Assembly (NCBI RefSeq): GCF_003479425.1
Contig: NZ_QUHC01000003.1
Location: forward strand, 394,929 to 458,928
Reading direction: 5' to 3'
DNA: 64,000 nt
Source: Odoribacter sp. AF15-53
Lineage (GTDB): Bacteria; Bacteroidota; Bacteroidia; Bacteroidales; Marinifilaceae
Made by a program: the position numbers and the translations under genes. Below the pieces are notes generated by a model. The model worked only from the letters and a program-made list of their open reading frames with translations, was not told the DNA's origin and did not search any database. This document shows, one piece after another, positions 56,426-63,774 of the stretch; within the stretch, counting starts at the first letter, position 1; each line of letters starts with the position of its first letter.

Positions 56426-56584
56426 GATAAATAAATCTTATTTTGAGATTTTTTTTCTTTTTATGGTTTAATGTATCAGTTTTCGAAAAAAAGTTTGTAC
56501 CTATGTAATGAATTATTTGGGTTAAACGTAGATATTGGGAGGGGAATGCTTGTTTGAATGTTTGTTGCAATCATTAATAGTGAC

Positions 56585-59161
56585 ATGGAAAATAAAGTAA
56601 TAGATTTCGTGTCTCTCGAACGTTTGTTTGAGGTCATCCCGATGACTGACGATGAAGCGGAAGTTTTCGAGAGATATACTTGTGATTATGATTTTACTTC
56701 TGTTGAGGAGCAGGGGCCGGAATGGATTTTTTCTCTGTTGAGCGTGATGCGGTCCGAGTTGGCCAGGGATGAAATAGGGATTGAAGATTACGATCTTTTG
56801 AATCACGTGTTTATTCGTATTCTGGAATGGTTGCTCGAGGGTTCCGGTTATTTGAAGTACTATGACGGCGTGAAATTGAATGACGCACGTATGCAAGTAG
56901 AGCGTTTTCTGGATGAGGCTATCGCGGGGAGAGAGGCCGCCCGGTTAATTCATGATGGGGATGACGGGAAGTATATCATGGAGAAGTTGGGAAAGTTGAC
57001 AATTTCCGGTTATTTATATAAAAAATCATTGGTATGGATCACGATCTTGACGATCGTGCGTCTTAGTTCCAAGTTACATCTTTTGCCGGTGCAGGGACTT
57101 GTGCTTCTGGTATATCACACGTTGAACAAGAGTTGTCCCAAGATTTTGGATTGTTTTAATGCACGGGTGAAATTGGTAAGAGAACGGGATGATAAATTAT
57201 GTTTTGACGGGTATTCGGAAGATCAGCTTCGGGAGACGGTATGGATTCTGGGAGCCCGTATTTTGCTTGGAGAGTCCGTACAGGAAGAACTGGCTTGTTT
57301 ACGCTCGATGTTTTTCAGATACTTGTATGTTTTACTGGATAAGGAGGAAACGTCCATTCGTGAAAATGCTTTTAATTCTTTGCTATTCAATCAGAAGACG
57401 GCATTGTTTGCTTGGGAGGATTTGTTGACCTTCTCTATCCCTGAGCTGGCGGAAGCGATTGCCGGGAAAACGATGGAAGCCTTGAGGAATTGTCAACGAA
57501 GATTATTCGAGGGGTACGGGCAGGTATTGGTGGAAAATAAGGCCATAACGATAAATTCGCCTGGGGTTTCTAATTTTGTGCCTTTGTTGGACGTGGAAGG
57601 AGTTGCTTTGCGTGTTGGGACTGGGCGTGATAAATTGAACTTCGAGGAGGAACTCACGGCTGTGGTAAACTCATGGAGAAGCGTGTATGCTGATTTTTCC
57701 GATGAATTGAAGAAAAATATCATACGCAAGCGACGCCCGGTAGAAGGAACTGTTGTGAATATACGTGTAAAGTTGGTGTATAACATGAAGCCGACCTTGG
57801 CCTTCGTGTCGATCGTGGACGATCAGTACGAAGGGGACGGTGCGTTGCACGTGAGTCAGATCACGCGGGCTAAACTAGATAGTTTGGAAGATATACTTCA
57901 GCCTGGAGATATCATGACAGCCACGGTGATTGAGGCAGAGGACGGGCGACTCCGGTTTTCCATTTGGGAGCAATTGGGGCGGTTTTCGGTTGGAAACGTG
58001 CAGGAGGGAGAGCGTTGTAACGCTCTGCTGTTGAACGAGCGGAATGGTATATTAACGTGGCTTGCAGAAGCCGGTTTTATCGTTTATACCCGGACTTCGG
58101 AAATGTTTGACGTGGAAGAGGGCGATTATTGTCTGTTGGAGTTAATTCCTGTGCCTTCGTTCGGTAAGATAAACGGTAATATTGTCCAGCTCCAAGCGGA
58201 AGGTTTTGATCGTTATGATGCCGTGGCACATCTGATACGCGGGTATGTCGAGAGTTGCAAGAAGGGAAAACAGGTAGAAGGGCCGGAGAATTTTAACACG
58301 GGTAAGATAGAGCGTTCCACGGATGTTTCCGGTAAATATGTGAGGGAATTGATCCGGTTATTACAACTTTACCTGACCCGGGAAGTGAATCTTCAAAACC
58401 TGAATCTGTTGTATTATCTCCGTTTGTTAGCTCACGTGTTGGGAGATAATCGACTGAAAGGGTATTACGAGTGTCTGATCAATCATTTGATCGTGAAGTA
58501 CGAGTTTATCAGTGGAAATCTGCATGATATGGATCTGGGAGCACTGGAAAAAGATTTCCGCACTTTCCCGGCGTTGGAACCGCAATGGGCTATTGTGAAA
58601 ATGCTCGCGTTGTATGGTGATGCTTCCCGGGCGAATGATATTGTTCGTTATTCTCATTCCGATAACGAGTATCTGGCTAAGGTGGCAAAGTTCGTTTTGG
58701 CCGGGGAAGTGAAAAGTGAGTCTTCCGGTGGGGCTTGTATCGTTCAGGATGAATTGTTGGATTTGTTACTTGGTGCCCAAGAGTCTGGTGTTATAACGGA
58801 TAAGACTTGTAAGTTTAAAAATTCGATCGTTTATACAGACGGGGTACGGGGTGTTGATGTGGAAAAACAGATTGATTCGGTCATGCAGGATATTTGTGAT
58901 TATCTGAATGATGAGGGAGGATTGATTTATATCGGGGTGAACAATAAGGGAGTTCCGGTCGGGGTACAGGCTGATTTGGATTATTTGTGTTGTAATCAGG
59001 ATAAATACGAGTTATTCCTTCATAAAAGAATCGTGGAGGCTTTTGATAAGGAGATCGACAAGGCGATCAAAATAGATAGAAAACAATTTGGAGACAAGAT
59101 TGTTTTTGTCCTTTCCGTACCGCCTTCGCATCAACTGGTTGAATATCACTCGACAATTTAG
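56585..59161 (+). CDS. Large protein with S1-like RNA-binding region and C-terminal AlbA/Schlafen-type domain
   Basis: An 858-residue soluble protein from ATG 56585 (MENKVIDFVSLERLF); ATG 56558 would add nine residues. Residues 1-370 are helical and unrecognised. An S1/OB-like region follows at about 378-460 (RRPVEGTVVNIRVKL, ALHVSQITRAKLD, IWEQLGRF), perhaps with a second OB region to about 545. The C-terminus (about 738-858) matches the AlbA_2 domain of Schlafen-like proteins (EKQIDSVMQDICDYLNDEGG, LIYIGVNNKGVPVGVQ, VLSVPPSHQLVEY). The domain stops abruptly at TAG 59159, before its usual final strand, so truncation or a frameshift is possible. Likely RNA- or DNA-binding; function unknown. 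Confidence 0.75.
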   Translation: MENKVIDFVSLERLFEVIPMTDDEAEVFERYTCDYDFTSVEEQGPEWIFSLLSVMRSELARDEIGIEDYDLLNHVFIRILEWLLEGSGYLKYYDGVKLNDARMQVERFLDEAIAGREAARLIHDGDDGKYIMEKLGKLTISGYLYKKSLVWITILTIVRLSSKLHLLPVQGLVLLVYHTLNKSCPKILDCFNARVKLVRERDDKLCFDGYSEDQLRETVWILGARILLGESVQEELACLRSMFFRYLYVLLDKEETSIRENAFNSLLFNQKTALFAWEDLLTFSIPELAEAIAGKTMEALRNCQRRLFEGYGQVLVENKAITINSPGVSNFVPLLDVEGVALRVGTGRDKLNFEEELTAVVNSWRSVYADFSDELKKNIIRKRRPVEGTVVNIRVKLVYNMKPTLAFVSIVDDQYEGDGALHVSQITRAKLDSLEDILQPGDIMTATVIEAEDGRLRFSIWEQLGRFSVGNVQEGERCNALLLNERNGILTWLAEAGFIVYTRTSEMFDVEEGDYCLLELIPVPSFGKINGNIVQLQAEGFDRYDAVAHLIRGYVESCKKGKQVEGPENFNTGKIERSTDVSGKYVRELIRLLQLYLTREVNLQNLNLLYYLRLLAHVLGDNRLKGYYECLINHLIVKYEFISGNLHDMDLGALEKDFRTFPALEPQWAIVKMLALYGDASRANDIVRYSHSDNEYLAKVAKFVLAGEVKSESSGGACIVQDELLDLLLGAQESGVITDKTCKFKNSIVYTDGVRGVDVEKQIDSVMQDICDYLNDEGGLIYIGVNNKGVPVGVQADLDYLCCNQDKYELFLHKRIVEAFDKEIDKAIKIDRKQFGDKIVFVLSVPPSHQLVEYHSTI

Positions 59162-59232: not shown

Positions 59233-60255
59233 CTACTCCTTTTCATCGTAGAGTTTTGTTGCTGAACGAAGTTTGGAGGCCATGAAGTGAACGAGGGAAG
59301 GCGGGGAAAGAACTTTTATCCCCTCGGCGAAACCGAATATTTCACGTTGTAGTTCTTGGTTAATAACAACTTTTATCTCGAAAATGATATCCCCGTTTTT
59401 TAGCCTTTCCACGATTCTTTGGGATTTGTGTAAAGGTTTCGTTTCAACGTATGGAGCATTTTGGGGGTTGACTTGAAAACGAACCACTTCGGCCTTCGAG
59501 CCTCTGTTTTTGGTTACCCCGACAAGATCATCGAAAAAGGTTGTCAGGTCAAATAGGGTATTCTCTTTGTAGGTTTCTCCTTTGGCGATTTCGAGATGGT
59601 GAATCCGGTCAAGGGCCAGGTTTACAAGCGTGGAGGAACCTTGTCTGATGCCAAATACAAACCAGCGATTCCGGTATTCTTTTAACAGGTAGGGATGAAA
59701 CATGAACGTGGAGGCCGAACGGGCCTTGAAGGAGCGGTATTTCATGGAGAGCACCTGTTTGTTGACAATCGCGTGATATATGACATCCAGGTAGTCGATA
59801 CCTTTCAGGCTCTCGTTTTTCTCGAAATCGATGACCGGGATGGTTTTCTGGCGGGCTGAGGTCACGTGGTCTTCCAGTCGGTTGATAATATCCCCCATGT
59901 TGGCGAAGTACGAGAATCCCTTGAATTGACGTAACACTTCGACGGCCTCGGACATCACGTGCAGGTCTTGCTCGGATAAGGGAGTATTCGTGATACTGTA
60001 ATTTTCGTCCTCGTATTTGTAGTATTTGTTGTCATATACCACGATCGGAGCATTATATCCCAGTTTTTCACTACGCATGACCTGTATATCCATTTGAATG
60101 GTGCGGCGGCTGATTCCTTTAGAGATCCCTTCATATTCATCCAGGGCATCGGAACACGCGTCAATTAAATCTTCAAGGGTCCATCGCCTGTACTTGTTGC
60201 GAAGACAATTATCTATTGTTTTATAGCGAATTAGGGCATTCCGGTTTGCTGGCAT
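59233..60255 (-). CDS. WYL-domain transcriptional regulator
   Basis: A 340-residue regulator. An N-terminal winged-helix lies at about 8-75 (RYKTIDNCLRNKYRRWTLED, SRRTIQMDIQVMRS). A WYL domain from about 150 to 235 carries VLSMKYRSFK and RNRWFVFGIRQG, where the W-[FY]-[VL] signature is visible, and a WCX-like C-terminal domain covers about 250-330. WYL domains sense nucleic-acid or nucleotide ligands and commonly control RNA repair, DNA damage or defence genes. It is divergent from the Ro60 gene with 113 nt between start codons, so it probably controls that operon and itself. This is inference from position. Confidence 0.9.
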   Translation of the reverse strand: MPANRNALIRYKTIDNCLRNKYRRWTLEDLIDACSDALDEYEGISKGISRRTIQMDIQVMRSEKLGYNAPIVVYDNKYYKYEDENYSITNTPLSEQDLHVMSEAVEVLRQFKGFSYFANMGDIINRLEDHVTSARQKTIPVIDFEKNESLKGIDYLDVIYHAIVNKQVLSMKYRSFKARSASTFMFHPYLLKEYRNRWFVFGIRQGSSTLVNLALDRIHHLEIAKGETYKENTLFDLTTFFDDLVGVTKNRGSKAEVVRFQVNPQNAPYVETKPLHKSQRIVERLKNGDIIFEIKVVINQELQREIFGFAEGIKVLSPPSLVHFMASKLRSATKLYDEKE

Positions 60256-60280
60256 GAGGATGAGATTAAAATTATTTTTT

Positions 60281-60341
60281 CAAAAATATGAAAATTATTT
60301 TTGTTGCGCAAAAAGATTGCGCACCCGTGCATGCATCTTTG
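60281..60341. promoter_or_regulatory. Divergent WYL/Ro60 promoter region with TTGCGCA repeats
   Basis: For the minus-strand WYL gene, TATTTTTG (60288-60281) and TTTG (60312-60309) are 20 nt apart, a good Bacteroidetes promoter. For the Ro60 gene, CATCTTTG (60334-60341) is one base off a -7 element. TTGCGCA occurs twice, at 60304-60310 and 60317-60323; the first copy overlaps the WYL -33 element. These 13-bp-spaced repeats are the natural candidate operator. Confidence 0.6.
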
Positions 60342-60368
60342 TCGTGTAAAACGAAAAAAGATACAATT

Positions 60369-61991
60369 ATGAGGTTCAATTTTACAAACAAGGGAAAAGA
60401 TACGACCGTGAATTACATGGGTGCGAGGGCTTACAAGATGACCCCGGAAATGGAATTGTATTCTACCGTGGTAACTTGTGTCGTGGATGATTCTTATTAC
60501 GAATCAAACGCTGACAGGATAAACCGGATCAAAAATCTGATCTCAAAATGCCGTCCGGAGTTCGTGGCTAAACTGGCCGTGTACGCTCGTACGGAGATGA
60601 ATTTACGTTCTGTTCCGGTGATTTTGGTTGTAGAATTGGCAAGATTGTATTCCGGGAATGAAGTTGTGAAGCGTGCCGTATCGGGAATCGTGAGACGTGC
60701 CGATGAAATTACTGAGGTCCTGGCGTATTACCAGGTGGCCAACGGACGTGAGGGGACGAAAAAACTGAACCGTTTGTCAAAGCAGGTACAAAAAGGATTG
60801 ATTGAGTCGTTTAACCAATTTGACGAGTATCAATTTGCCAAATATAACCGGGAGACGGCAGTAAGTTTGCGGGATGCCTTGTTTCTGGTTCACCCGAAAG
60901 CGAAGGATGAGGCTCAACAAGCTATATTTGATCGAATTGTTTCCGGTAGTCTGGCAACTCCCTATACCTGGGAGACGGAATTGTCCGAGTTGGGTAAGAT
61001 GTCGTTCGGAAACGAGAAGGTGCGGGCTATGGCTGTTTCTGAAAAGTGGGAAGAGTTGTTAGCGAGTGGAAAATTGGGATATATGGCGATATTGCGGAAT
61101 TTACGAAATATCGTGATGAAAAGTTCTTCCGTGGCGTTGGATATCGCTTTGGATGTTTTGACAGATAAAAATAGAATCAGGAGATCAAAGCAAATGCCTT
61201 TTCGTTATTTGTCGGCTTTCTTGGAAATAAATAAGTTGACCAAAGAATCTTCCATGTTTGAAGAGGAAAAGGCCAAAATCAAGAGAACGTTGTCAGCTTT
61301 GGAGCAGGCGTTGGTTGCCAGTTGTGACAACATTCCCGTGTGTGGGGGAAAGACTGTGATATTGTCTGATAATTCGGGGAGTATGTACGGTGACCGGGGA
61401 GGAAAATCGTTGGTTTCGGCCATGAGCGACCGTAAATCGGCGGATATTGCCAACCTGTTTGCCGTGTTGTACTGGAACAGGTGCAAGGATACTTACGTCG
61501 GTTTGTTCGGCGATCGCCTGGTGGATGCCGGCTTGGATCGTTCGGTGAATGTATTTGAGAATTTCAACATCATTAACCGTGCCGCCAAGAAATGCGGACC
61601 GTCGACAGAACGCGGGATATTCGATTACATGGAAAGTTTGATCAAGTCGAAAAAGATCGTGGATCGGATTGTGATATTTTCGGACTGTCAGGTCGGGACG
61701 GGATGTAATTGGTATGATAGTAAGGGGCATCGGGGTGATTATTTTAATCGTCTCTTCCAGAAATACTTGCAAATCAACCCGGCTGTGAAAATCTATACGA
61801 TTGACTTGCGGGGATACGGGAACAGCATGACGAAAGACGATGGGAACGTGATTTTGGTAAGCGGGTGGAGTGAAAAGATCTTTGATATGATATATTACAT
61901 CGAGCAGGGATCATCCGTCGTGAATGAAATAATGAAGATCGAGTTGCAAAAAAATCAAGCTACGCAAAAAGAGTGCGTACCGGGATGCTAA
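60369..61991 (+). CDS. rsr: Ro60/Rsr ortholog, TROVE-domain RNA-binding protein
   Basis: A 540-residue protein from ATG 60369 (MRFNFTNKGKDTTVN); the upstream in-frame ATG 60288 lies inside the promoter region. The TROVE HEAT-repeat ring covers about 1-320 (MELYSTVVTCVVDDSYY, ARTEMNLRSVPVILVVELA, LRDALFLVHPKAKDE). A von Willebrand A-like domain follows with the MIDAS motif DNSGS at 334-338. Ro60 binds Y RNAs on its outer surface and the ends of misfolded RNAs in its ring; bacterial Rsr works with PNPase and with Y RNAs. Here it is followed directly by three Y RNA-like units and rtcB, which supports the assignment. Confidence 0.93.
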   Translation: MRFNFTNKGKDTTVNYMGARAYKMTPEMELYSTVVTCVVDDSYYESNADRINRIKNLISKCRPEFVAKLAVYARTEMNLRSVPVILVVELARLYSGNEVVKRAVSGIVRRADEITEVLAYYQVANGREGTKKLNRLSKQVQKGLIESFNQFDEYQFAKYNRETAVSLRDALFLVHPKAKDEAQQAIFDRIVSGSLATPYTWETELSELGKMSFGNEKVRAMAVSEKWEELLASGKLGYMAILRNLRNIVMKSSSVALDIALDVLTDKNRIRRSKQMPFRYLSAFLEINKLTKESSMFEEEKAKIKRTLSALEQALVASCDNIPVCGGKTVILSDNSGSMYGDRGGKSLVSAMSDRKSADIANLFAVLYWNRCKDTYVGLFGDRLVDAGLDRSVNVFENFNIINRAAKKCGPSTERGIFDYMESLIKSKKIVDRIVIFSDCQVGTGCNWYDSKGHRGDYFNRLFQKYLQINPAVKIYTIDLRGYGNSMTKDDGNVILVSGWSEKIFDMIYYIEQGSSVVNEIMKIELQKNQATQKECVPGC

Positions 61992-62020
61992 TTTTGTATG
62001 GTCAACATGAAAGTTCTTTG
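61989..62020 (+). promoter_or_regulatory. Possible promoter of the Y RNA cluster
   Basis: TAATTTTG (61989-61996) is an exact -7 match overlapping the rsr stop codon. GTTCTTTG (62013-62020) is a near match, with the TTTG of the first lying 16 nt upstream. Transcription from about 62027 would fit the 5' end of the first Y RNA stem. Weak, since the -33 elements are poor. Confidence 0.35.
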
Positions 62021-62030
62021 AATTAACAGT

Positions 62031-62184
62031 ATAAAGCAAGTGCCGTAGATAAGAGTTACTTCGCATTTACGCCCGTGTCGCGGGTTCGATTCCCGCCACT
62101 CCCTCGATGAATTAATTTTACGGGAGTGTAGCTCAGTAGGATAGAGCAGGATATAGTCTTTTCTCGTTTGTTGCCTTGCTTTTT
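62031..62184 (+). ncRNA. Y RNA (YrlA type) with circularly permuted tRNA-like domain, unit 1
   Basis: AAAGCAAG (62033-62040) pairs with CTTGCTTT (62175-62182) to form the Y stem, next to the presumed Ro-binding elements TGCCGTA and GTTGC (62041-62047, 62170-62174). The core AGAGTTACTTCG follows at 62052-62063. Inside, tRNA parts occur in permuted order: T arm GCGGG-TTCGATT-CCCGC (62080-62096), acceptor 3' strand CACTCCC (62097-62103), an 18-nt loop, acceptor 5' strand GGGAGTG (62122-62128), then TA and D arm GCTC-AGTAGGATA-GAGC (62131-62147). The acceptor stem is 7 perfect bp. The Y stem takes the place of the anticodon loop, as known for YrlA. Five T residues follow. Confidence 0.88.
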
Positions 62185-62189
62185 AAGAT

Positions 62190-62308
62190 ACAGGACAAGT
62201 GCCGTAAAAAAGAGTTACTTCGGTAAAGATGTAAATCTGTGTGGGTTCAAATCCCACTTATCCTTGTGATAATTAAAATAAACTTTTTTGCCTGTTGCCT
62301 TGTCTTTA
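62190..62308 (+). ncRNA. Y RNA-like unit 2, T arm but no D arm
   Basis: GGACAAG (62193-62199) pairs with CTTGTCT (62299-62305). The core is TGCCGTA, four A, AGAGTTACTTCG (62200-62222). The T arm is GTGGG-TTCAAAT-CCCAC (62241-62257), and a short acceptor-like hairpin TTATC-CTTGT-GATAA follows (62258-62272). GTTGC (62294-62298) precedes the 3' Y-stem strand as in unit 1. No GCTC/GAGC D arm is present; instead there is an AT-rich stretch. Confidence 0.8.
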
Positions 62309-62320
62309 AATGTAAACTAA

Positions 62321-62411
62321 ACGTGGATGCCGTAGGGTAGAGTTACTTCGTTCAAGTGGTTATCGTGGGTTCGAATCCCGCACGGAACTTTACCCGCAGG
62401 TCGCTCCGCAT
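62321..62411 (+). ncRNA. Y RNA-like unit 3, shortest, upstream of rtcB
   Basis: The core TGCCGTA, GGGT, AGAGTTACTTCG (62328-62350) is identical to units 1 and 2 outside the four variable bases. The T arm is GTGGG-TTCGAAT-CCCGC (62365-62381). GTGGA (62323-62327) can pair with TCCGC (62405-62409), which is preceded by GTCGC in the place of GTTGC. There is no D arm and no terminator before the rtcB start at 62430, so this unit may be part of the rtcB leader. Confidence 0.72.
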
Positions 62412-62429
62412 ATTAATAAAATTAGAGTT

Positions 62430-63740
62430 ATGATAGAATTAAAAGGAAAATATAATCAAGATTGCAAGATTTTTATTGATGAGGTTGAAACGGGAGCCAT
62501 CGAGCTGGTGCAAAATATTTTGAATAACGAGATATCCGCAGGTGTTCCGGTACGAATCATGCCGGATACTCACGAGGGTAAGGGGATTGTCATCGGGTTC
62601 ACAATGCCTATGACGAAAATGGTTAACCCGAATTATATTGGTGTGGATATCGGTTGCTCGGTCACGACCTATAAGTTGAATAAACGAATTGAAAAAGAGC
62701 GTTTTCCTGTTTTGGACCATGCGATCAGGCGTTCGATTCCTATGGGAATGCATATCCGGAAAGAGAAAACCTTTGATGATTGGTGGGTGAAGGCTTATTT
62801 TGAAGAGGTGAATAAGAATATCGCCGCTTTTCAACAAGAGTGGACGCAACGATTCGGAGAGGAGAAGGATGCTATCGTTGTTGATAAAGAGTATATTGCC
62901 GGGCTTTGTAAAAAAATAAAGATCAGAGAGAATATTTTCTATTATTCCGTGGGAACACTGGGAGGAGGAAATCATTTTATTGAACTGGGGGAATCCACTA
63001 ATGACGGGGCGCATTATTTGACGATACATTCCGGTTCAAGAAATTTTGGGTTGAAGGTTTGTAATTACCATGCCAAGAAAATGTATGGAACGAATATTCT
63101 CCCGGCGGAGTATCAGGAAGAATTTAAGTATATCACGGAGAATACGTTGCCGACAAGTGATATCCCGAAGAAGTTGGAAGAATTGAAACGTCGGTATGAA
63201 GTGGGTAAAAAAGAGCATCTGTTGGAAGGCGAGAATATGTATGAATATCTTGTTGATATGGTTATTGCCCAGACTTATGCGCAATTTAATCATAAAGTGA
63301 TGGCTTGGGCGATATTTAAGGATTTGGGAGAAGATTATCAGGCCGAGGATGTTGTTTATTCAATGCATAATTTTATTGATACAACGGATTGGATTATCCG
63401 AAAAGGGGCTATTCGAGCTTATCAGGGAGAGAAAATGGTTATCCCGTTTAATATGCGTGACGGATTGTTGATTTGTGAGGGGAAAAGTAACCCGGACTGG
63501 AACTGTTCTGCTCCTCATGGAGCGGGAAGAGTTCTAGCACGAAGCAAGGCTTTCAAGACCTTGGACATGGATGAATTCACGAGAGAAATGTCCGGGATTT
63601 ATTCTACTTCCGTCTGTCAACGAACGCTTGACGAGTCTCCGATGGCGTATAAGGACAAGGATGTGATCATGGAAGCAATACAGGATACGGCCGTGATTCT
63701 CGATACGATTAAACCGATTATGAATATCAAGGCGTTGTGA
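62430..63740 (+). CDS. rtcB: RNA-splicing ligase RtcB
   Basis: A 436-residue GTP-dependent RNA ligase. Manganese ligands lie in YIGVDIGCSV (Asp73, Cys76), GGGNHFIELG and LTIHSGSRNFG. The guanylylated histidine is in SAPHGAGRVLARSKA (His363). RtcB joins 2',3'-cyclic phosphate or 3'-phosphate ends to 5'-OH ends, and so repairs cleaved tRNAs or can circularise RNA. It is a short RtcB variant, about the length of the Bacteroidetes forms. It follows the Y RNA cluster by 18 nt and ends at a strong terminator, so rsr, Y RNAs and rtcB form one unit. Confidence 0.95.
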   Translation: MIELKGKYNQDCKIFIDEVETGAIELVQNILNNEISAGVPVRIMPDTHEGKGIVIGFTMPMTKMVNPNYIGVDIGCSVTTYKLNKRIEKERFPVLDHAIRRSIPMGMHIRKEKTFDDWWVKAYFEEVNKNIAAFQQEWTQRFGEEKDAIVVDKEYIAGLCKKIKIRENIFYYSVGTLGGGNHFIELGESTNDGAHYLTIHSGSRNFGLKVCNYHAKKMYGTNILPAEYQEEFKYITENTLPTSDIPKKLEELKRRYEVGKKEHLLEGENMYEYLVDMVIAQTYAQFNHKVMAWAIFKDLGEDYQAEDVVYSMHNFIDTTDWIIRKGAIRAYQGEKMVIPFNMRDGLLICEGKSNPDWNCSAPHGAGRVLARSKAFKTLDMDEFTREMSGIYSTSVCQRTLDESPMAYKDKDVIMEAIQDTAVILDTIKPIMNIKAL

Positions 63741-63741
63741 G

Positions 63742-63774
63742 GGAAGAGAAACAGAGATGTTTCTCTTCCTTTTT
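63742..63774 (+). terminator. Intrinsic terminator of the rsr-Y RNA-rtcB unit
   Basis: GGAAGAGAAAC (63742-63752) and GTTTCTCTTCC (63759-63769) are a perfect 11-bp stem with a 6-nt loop followed by TTTTT, beginning right after the rtcB stop. Confidence 0.92.

Follow-up and report, generated by a model that had tools for sequence, protein, structure and literature searches.

A shared palindromic operator and a WYL regulator probably connect Bacteroidota RNA-repair genes with tandem tRNA-mimicking RNAs

The stretch of Odoribacter sp. AF15-53 DNA analyzed here (the window, 64 kb) contains a locus of three genes and three RNA units. A WYL regulator gene (59233 to 60255, minus strand) lies divergent to rsr, which encodes a Ro60 (TROVE) protein (60369 to 61991, plus strand); three Y RNA-like units follow, and then a predicted gene for the RNA ligase RtcB (62430 to 63740, plus strand). 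Our analysis indicates that in many Bacteroidota RNA-repair genes and such tandem tRNA-mimicking RNAs probably share one DNA switch, a 19-bp palindrome, and a single regulator, the WYL protein, that would sense nucleic acid; together these would constitute a response dedicated to RNA damage. The original prediction had suggested a self-contained, inducible RNA repair or surveillance unit. The arrangement of genes and RNA units that it claimed is borne out by Pfam matches and a covariance model, whereas its self-contained nature is not supported: the same operator precedes unlinked RNA-repair genes in other genomes, which makes a node within a regulon the better reading of the locus.

The operator, its promoter register and its regulator

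Comparison of the rsr promoter with those of other loci revealed a 19-bp palindrome, TRCGCA-N7-TGCGYA. Pattern scanning located two copies in the locus, neither assigned to a strand. Operator 1 (TGCGCA-N7-TGCGCA, 60305 to 60323) lies between the WYL gene and rsr, and operator 2 (TACGCA-N7-TGCGTA, 61961 to 61979) lies in the 3' end of rsr, ahead of the Y RNA array. Each is followed on the plus strand by a putative -7 box. The box of the rsr promoter, CATCTTTG (60334 to 60341), has its TTTG at 60338, 14 nt past operator 1; that of the Y RNA/rtcB promoter, a perfect TAATTTTG (61989 to 61996), overlaps the rsr stop codon and has its TTTG at 61993, 13 nt past operator 2. The names -7 and -33 refer to what we take to be the Bacteroidota promoter consensus.

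The comparative set comprised 81 rsr loci, namely the window and 80 loci taken from genome records, which in many cases are metagenome-assembled. Among the 80 Bacteroidota genome loci, a divergent WYL gene is present in 38, a downstream rtcB in 29 and both in 23; the WYL-rsr-rtcB gene order thus recurs in Bacteroidota. The operator was found upstream of rsr as an exact match in 65 of these 80 loci, and in 72 when one mismatch was allowed. None of 80 viral rsr loci (L081 to L160, of which at least L084 and L085 are identical to each other) has the operator; 18 of them carry the Y core described below and three carry rtcB. Over all fetched bases, 111 exact operator sites were counted in 1.29 Mb of genome loci versus none in 1.18 Mb of viral loci.

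The distance between palindrome and promoter was assessed at 72 operator sites that are followed by a gene (rsr at 61, rtcB at 10 and WYL at one). The TTTG of the -7 box starts 13 nt (38 sites) or 14 nt (30 sites) past the palindrome in 68 of the 72, where 0.55 would be expected from the TTTG found elsewhere in the same stretches. After removal of near-identical promoters this register is kept in 47 of 51 sites, and the four misses are three far operators, located 156 to 157 nt from rsr, and the single WYL site. Where the WYL gene and a target diverge (12 pairs), a -7 TTTG at an offset of 12 to 15 stands on the target side in nine and on neither side in three. A TTTG at +13 or +14 is found at none of the 25 WYL-facing sites of rsr loci. 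Judging from their sequence context, some operator matches are chance occurrences. Eight of the 99 sites in fetched regions lie inside open reading frames, seven of these lacking the -7 TTTG; the remaining one belongs to rsr in L195, where the open reading frame was called too long.

The distribution of the pattern was then compared with that of the WYL protein, whose subfamily was delimited at >300 bits, a line placed after a gap in the match list had been noticed. In an evenly drawn sample of 118 genomes of the phylum, the operator pattern occurs in 14 of 15 WYL-subfamily genomes versus 13 of 103 others, and the reversed control pattern in 11 of the 118. A sample of 198 Bacteroidales genomes gave 9 of 10 versus 12 of 188, with the reversed pattern in 9 of 198 (Fisher p of 5e-10 and 2.6e-9 for the two samples, or 2e-9 and 2e-8 without the two center genomes that had been picked for their rsr). 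The pooled figures (316 genomes) are 23 of 25 versus 25 of 291. Eleven more genomes of the phylum sample match the WYL protein at 121 to 220 bits, and the pattern is present in 2 of these 11. The two WYL-subfamily genomes that lack an exact site are G031, which carries one-mismatch sites, one of them ahead of rtcB, and G351, which shows no such site in its fetched region; G118 has the pattern outside the 8 kb around its WYL gene. From the 12 pattern-positive, WYL-negative Bacteroidales genomes, four sites were fetched, and three of these stand at rtcB or WYL fragments or cut copies (L255, L256 and L258). In L255 and L258, rtcB is readable in fragments only next to an intact operator, as in decaying copies or sequence errors.

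The WYL gene product matches PF13280 with 48.2 bits and the WCX domain PF25583 with 43.8 bits, both above the Pfam cut-offs. Its AlphaFold model (pLDDT 81.4, pTM 0.51) has an N-terminal winged helix and a DriD-like fold. The best match of the model in the PDB is DriD, the WYL-WCX part of which leads by about four Z units; a search of the PDB with the protein sequence gave no relative up to E=1. Named relatives, which are not the closest ones, are proteins of Dysgonomonas, Parabacteroides and Tannerella with 76 to 80% identity, and they point to a probable Bacteroidales host. The co-occurrence of the operator with the WYL subfamily and the -7 register together indicate that the WYL protein is very probably the regulator of the locus, as had been proposed.

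The operator also reaches beyond rsr. In rsr-bearing genomes, the operator pattern outnumbers its reversed version by 49 to 2 (19 genomes) and by 123 to 5 (49 genomes), rsr sites counted in. Off-rsr regions were hand-picked, 20 from the 49 sites and 32 from among the matches listed in the 49-genome set; of these 52 fetched regions two are rsr loci, which gives a denominator of 50. An rtcB, hen1, T4-type RNA ligase or WYL gene lies within 160 nt of the operator in 15 of the 50 regions, a count from which regions picked partly for their WYL gene were left out. Targets recognized by Pfam include Hen1_L with PNKP_ligase (L187), Hen1_N with PNKP_ligase and HAD_PNKP (L193), Hen1_N with RNA_lig_T4_1 (L199) and RNA_lig_T4_1 (L202). 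L218, from a Prevotella-named record, L237 and others were assigned by similarity to these Pfam-named loci, with Hen1 in both L218 and L237. The sample-wide search for Hen1 covered Hen1_L (PF12623) alone, which was found in none of the 118 genomes; the Hen1 link therefore comes from single loci (L187, L193, L199, L218 and L237). At many sites the gene that follows the operator has no known function. Unknown or unexpected products encoded behind it include a duplicated 223-residue protein (L179 and L182), a SUKH-similar protein (L180), proteins of 288 (L194) and 208 residues (L231) and, behind a one-mismatch operator, a HopJ-family protein (L209). All are candidates for new RNA-repair or toxin-immunity genes.

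Y RNA-like units in the window and across Bacteroidota

A covariance model, R1, was built from 36 units of other genomes, none of them from the window. It matches the plus strand of the window at unit A (62031 to 62184, 61.3 bits, E 3.7e-13), unit B (62190 to 62308, 57.7 bits, E 3.2e-12) and unit C (62318 to 62414, 54.5 bits, E 2.1e-11), the last of which lies 16 nt 5' of the rtcB start codon. No match beyond these three was found in a scan of the whole 64 kb up to E=1. A 27-nt direct repeat is present in three copies between rsr and rtcB. The Rfam YrlA model (RF02553) aligns over its full length to unit A (62033 to 62180, 42.2 bits, E 5.1e-8), a score under the YrlA gathering score of 69, which is why an Rfam scan at the default gathering level finds no match in the window. 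The covariance scan suggested with the original prediction is thus answered in two ways: the new model recovers exactly the three units, whereas YrlA aligns to unit A only and below its gathering score.

The units differ from each other, as had been claimed. In motif tests unit A has both T-arm and D-arm motifs, and units B and C have the T-arm motif only, in a T-arm-like apical hairpin. Unit A appears to carry a circularly permuted tRNA-like domain in the order T-arm, 7-bp acceptor stem, UA and D-arm, and can be read as a tRNA with the Y stem in place of its anticodon arm. ARAGORN predicted no tRNA in the window. Minimum-energy folding gave z values of -0.79, 0.27 and -0.15 for three stretches cut before the unit borders were determined; as plain folding gives no signal, the support for the units is comparative. 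An additional Y RNA call at 60479, inside rsr, has four mismatches and is false; it lies outside the counted group and was not recovered by the covariance model.

Directly downstream of rsr, 75 of the 81 loci carry the core UGYCGUAG-N6-GUUACUUCG together with a matching partner on its 3' side, in 1 to 8 copies per locus and 260 in all. In a few of these 260 units the 3' partner was wrongly assigned, with apical parts of up to 287 nt. Of the six loci without downstream units, L032 and L074 carry units upstream of rsr. From the outside inward, a unit comprises a closing stem, an internal loop with UGYCGUA opposite ..UURC, an inner stem of 6 to 7 pairs and then GNUACUUCG. This last element, directly 3' of the inner stem (62055 to 62063 in the window), is strongly conserved and predicted to be unpaired. 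Among 36 aligned units, 190 compensated cells were observed versus 62 (sd 7.7) in shuffles, and the paired cells fall from 90% to 43-51% when the partner is slid by 1 to 3 columns, figures inflated by the partial selection of the counted and aligned units for pairing. By a weaker covariation measure, 16 pairs show any change on both sides versus 14.0 in shuffles, and 46 of 500 shuffles reach the observed value. One covarying pair lies inside the conserved internal-loop motif, being C-G in 98 and U-A in 56 of 159 non-redundant units. Taken together, the comparative evidence supports the Y RNA-like units as real sequence features.

Simple motif tests divide the apical parts of the 260 units into 67 that are permuted tRNA-like, 15 with the D motif only (several of which carry a variant T-loop), 59 with the T-arm motif only, 33 of a second class, and 86 without any tested motif, 47 of these with an apical part shorter than 26 nt. 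The second class, GGGGAGGAAUAG...CCGGUUCGACUCCGGC...GCCCC, is present as a single copy per locus in 33 loci; its members in L034 (7595), L008 (9719) and L069 (3647) have no Rfam match up to E 0.1.

Some single loci deserve mention. In L054 (7066 to 7310), the apical part of a Y unit is identical in 34 of 34 bases to Escherichia coli 23S rRNA near position 1910, and tRNA-like units stand alongside it in the same array. Eight bases near the end of this unit match the 23S bases immediately preceding the 34-base piece, a faint hint that the piece might be circularly permuted. In L238 (3573 to 4314), L239 and L240, the operator is followed by a gap of about 0.7 to 0.8 kb and then by a Band_7 gene; the L238 gap, the one scanned among the three, contains a YrlA-like domain (39.1 bits). 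Y RNA units in L217 (3533 to 3741, R1 63.8 bits) and L230 (3298 to 3541, 54.9 bits) adjoin operators, with no rsr recognized in the fetched stretch.

Proteins of the locus and proposed mechanism

The Rsr protein matches the TROVE family PF05731 with 91.5 bits (cut-off 23). An alignment of 30 sequences shows that residues D334, S336, S338, T413 and D439 are invariant, in agreement with what we take to be the definition of a MIDAS-type motif, D-x-S-x-S with a downstream T and D. With the NCBIfam equivalog NF041674 (RNA-binding protein Rsr) it scores 27.1 bits, below the curated cut-off of 900, and it is thus a Ro60/TROVE family member outside that equivalog. The RtcB protein matches PF01139 with 198.5 bits (cut-off 27) and contains the motifs DIGCS, GGGNHF, HSGSR and PHGAGR, which are presumably catalytic. 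The set scanned with Pfam comprised the four genes between 56558 and 63740, in which SLFN_AlbA_2, WYL/WCX, TROVE and RtcB were the only domains; the window stops 260 bases past rtcB. The fourth gene (56558 to 59161) adjoins the WYL gene and encodes a large protein with the SLFN_AlbA_2 domain at its C terminus and an S1-like stretch that scores below cut-offs. Elsewhere, L013 and L016 have two rsr copies per locus, and L016 has an operator at each copy.

We consider it likely that the locus forms one node in a Bacteroidota RNA-repair regulon governed by the WYL protein, which would act as a palindrome-binding activator. As regards WYL binding, activation, ligand, expression and Y RNA function, we infer the following. 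The WYL protein, a DriD-type winged-helix/WYL/WCX factor, would bind the palindrome, one copy of which would serve rsr and the second rtcB together with the Y RNA array. The palindrome would span the -33 region at a set distance from the -7 box of its target, for which reason the factor would most likely be an activator, as is DriD at sites that overlap the -35 region. The inducer, purely as a conjecture, would most likely be broken RNA such as cleaved tRNA with 2',3'-cyclic phosphate ends. RtcB would reseal cleaved RNA, while Rsr and the Y RNAs may sort, guard or pass on damaged RNA.

The WYL protein could alternatively bind the palindrome as a repressor, like BrxR and CapW, and occlude the -33 region until released by a ligand. 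We regard this as rather unlikely, since the -7 register is as fixed here as passages of PMC12340889 and PMC10693628 describe for the activators DriD and SiwR, and since DriD is the closest structural match by the lead given above. Two observations weigh against the WYL protein as owner of the palindrome: three of the nine TROVE-bearing genomes of the phylum sample have no WYL match, and the operator is present in 24 of the 35 rsr loci whose fetched stretch contains no WYL gene. The latter would suit a palindrome owned by another regulator, with WYL merely a further member of the regulon. Such an arrangement seems improbable, because the WYL gene is located elsewhere in several of these genomes (L184, L192, L197 and L220), operator presence follows the WYL subfamily genome by genome, and the TACG half-site and 7-nt spacer are the same as in the DriD site given in PMC12340889.

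The function of the locus might also be RNA surveillance or decay, with PNPase tethered by Rsr and Y RNA, as happens in Deinococcus, and with RtcB in an accessory role. Passages of PMC7790460 describe D. radiodurans Rsr and Y RNA as working with PNPase, and the conservation of the Y core, internal loop included, speaks for such a role; the presence of the same operator ahead of further RNA-ligase systems in other genomes argues for damage handling, and surveillance is to us the lesser possibility. If the WYL-governed repair regulon is taken further, Bacteroidota could possess a dedicated response to RNA damage, an RNA counterpart of SOS, in which one WYL factor senses broken RNA and turns on the RNA-ligase systems of the cell. 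The Y RNAs would then be modular, fast-evolving decoys or docking RNAs shaped like the targets of ribotoxins, namely a tRNA with a Ro60-binding stem for its anticodon arm and, in a single genome, a stretch of 23S rRNA. We offer this extension tentatively and hold it somewhat doubtful. If the apical modules do imitate such targets, the arrays would be decoys or docking RNAs, a guess for which the rRNA piece is a single example.

Relation to known systems

These results bear on how bacterial RNA repair is controlled outside the RtcR system, and on the long-standing question of what Ro60 and Y RNAs have to do with repair. Since one operator ties together rtcB, rsr with Y RNAs, hen1-rnl-pnkp and T4-type ligases, these genes are predicted to answer to a damage signal that they share. 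The operator also offers a route to listing unknown RNA-repair genes, namely those behind it, and to the inducer by means of a reporter.

Rsr, Y RNA and RtcB are already known to occur together, and the class is therefore known. Among the literature matches listed, none deals with this operator or regulon in its title or the opening of its abstract. Chen 2014, Burroughs and Aravind 2016 and Sim 2020 are said to describe Y RNAs and RNA-repair neighborhoods broadly, so that the gene order may already be published. What appears to be new within the literature searched is the WYL operator, its register to the promoter and the control that several ligase systems have in common. RtcR is treated as a CARF protein in PMC4012209, the RtcB and RtcR passages of which make no link between a WYL gene and rtcB, and a passage of PMC7824862 notes jumbo-phage TROVE proteins as partners of tRNA-like RNA.

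The locus is reminiscent of the Salmonella rsr-yrlBA-rtcBA RNA repair operon with RtcR, and passages of PMC7790460 agree with the parallel drawn in the original prediction: both combine Ro60, tRNA-mimicking Y RNAs and RtcB in a single locus. In contrast to that operon, the window has a WYL factor, a palindromic operator at a -33/-7 promoter and three Y units, and neither RtcA nor RtcR is among its four genes tested. Unit A covers the entire Rfam YrlA model, including the permuted tRNA-like domain, but scores under the gathering score; units B and C are unmatched as YrlA, and the Bacteroidota units differ from it by their core and by tandem arrays with different apical domains. Hen1-Rnl-Pnkp systems are not among the genes of the window locus, yet appear to be governed by an identical operator in other genomes. 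Finally, DriD, a WYL activator of Caulobacter, senses single-stranded DNA in a DNA-damage response; passages of PMC12340889 give its site as TACGAC-N7-GTCGTA. The fold, the TACG half-sites with a 7-nt spacer and the overlap of the site with the -35 region, at a constant spacing to the -10/-7 box, are the same, and in sequence the window operators follow this DriD-type layout. The window WYL protein shares 16-18% identity with DriD and its probable targets are RNA-repair genes. The shared operator also hints at a WYL sensor specific to RNA damage, beside the known sensors of single-stranded DNA.
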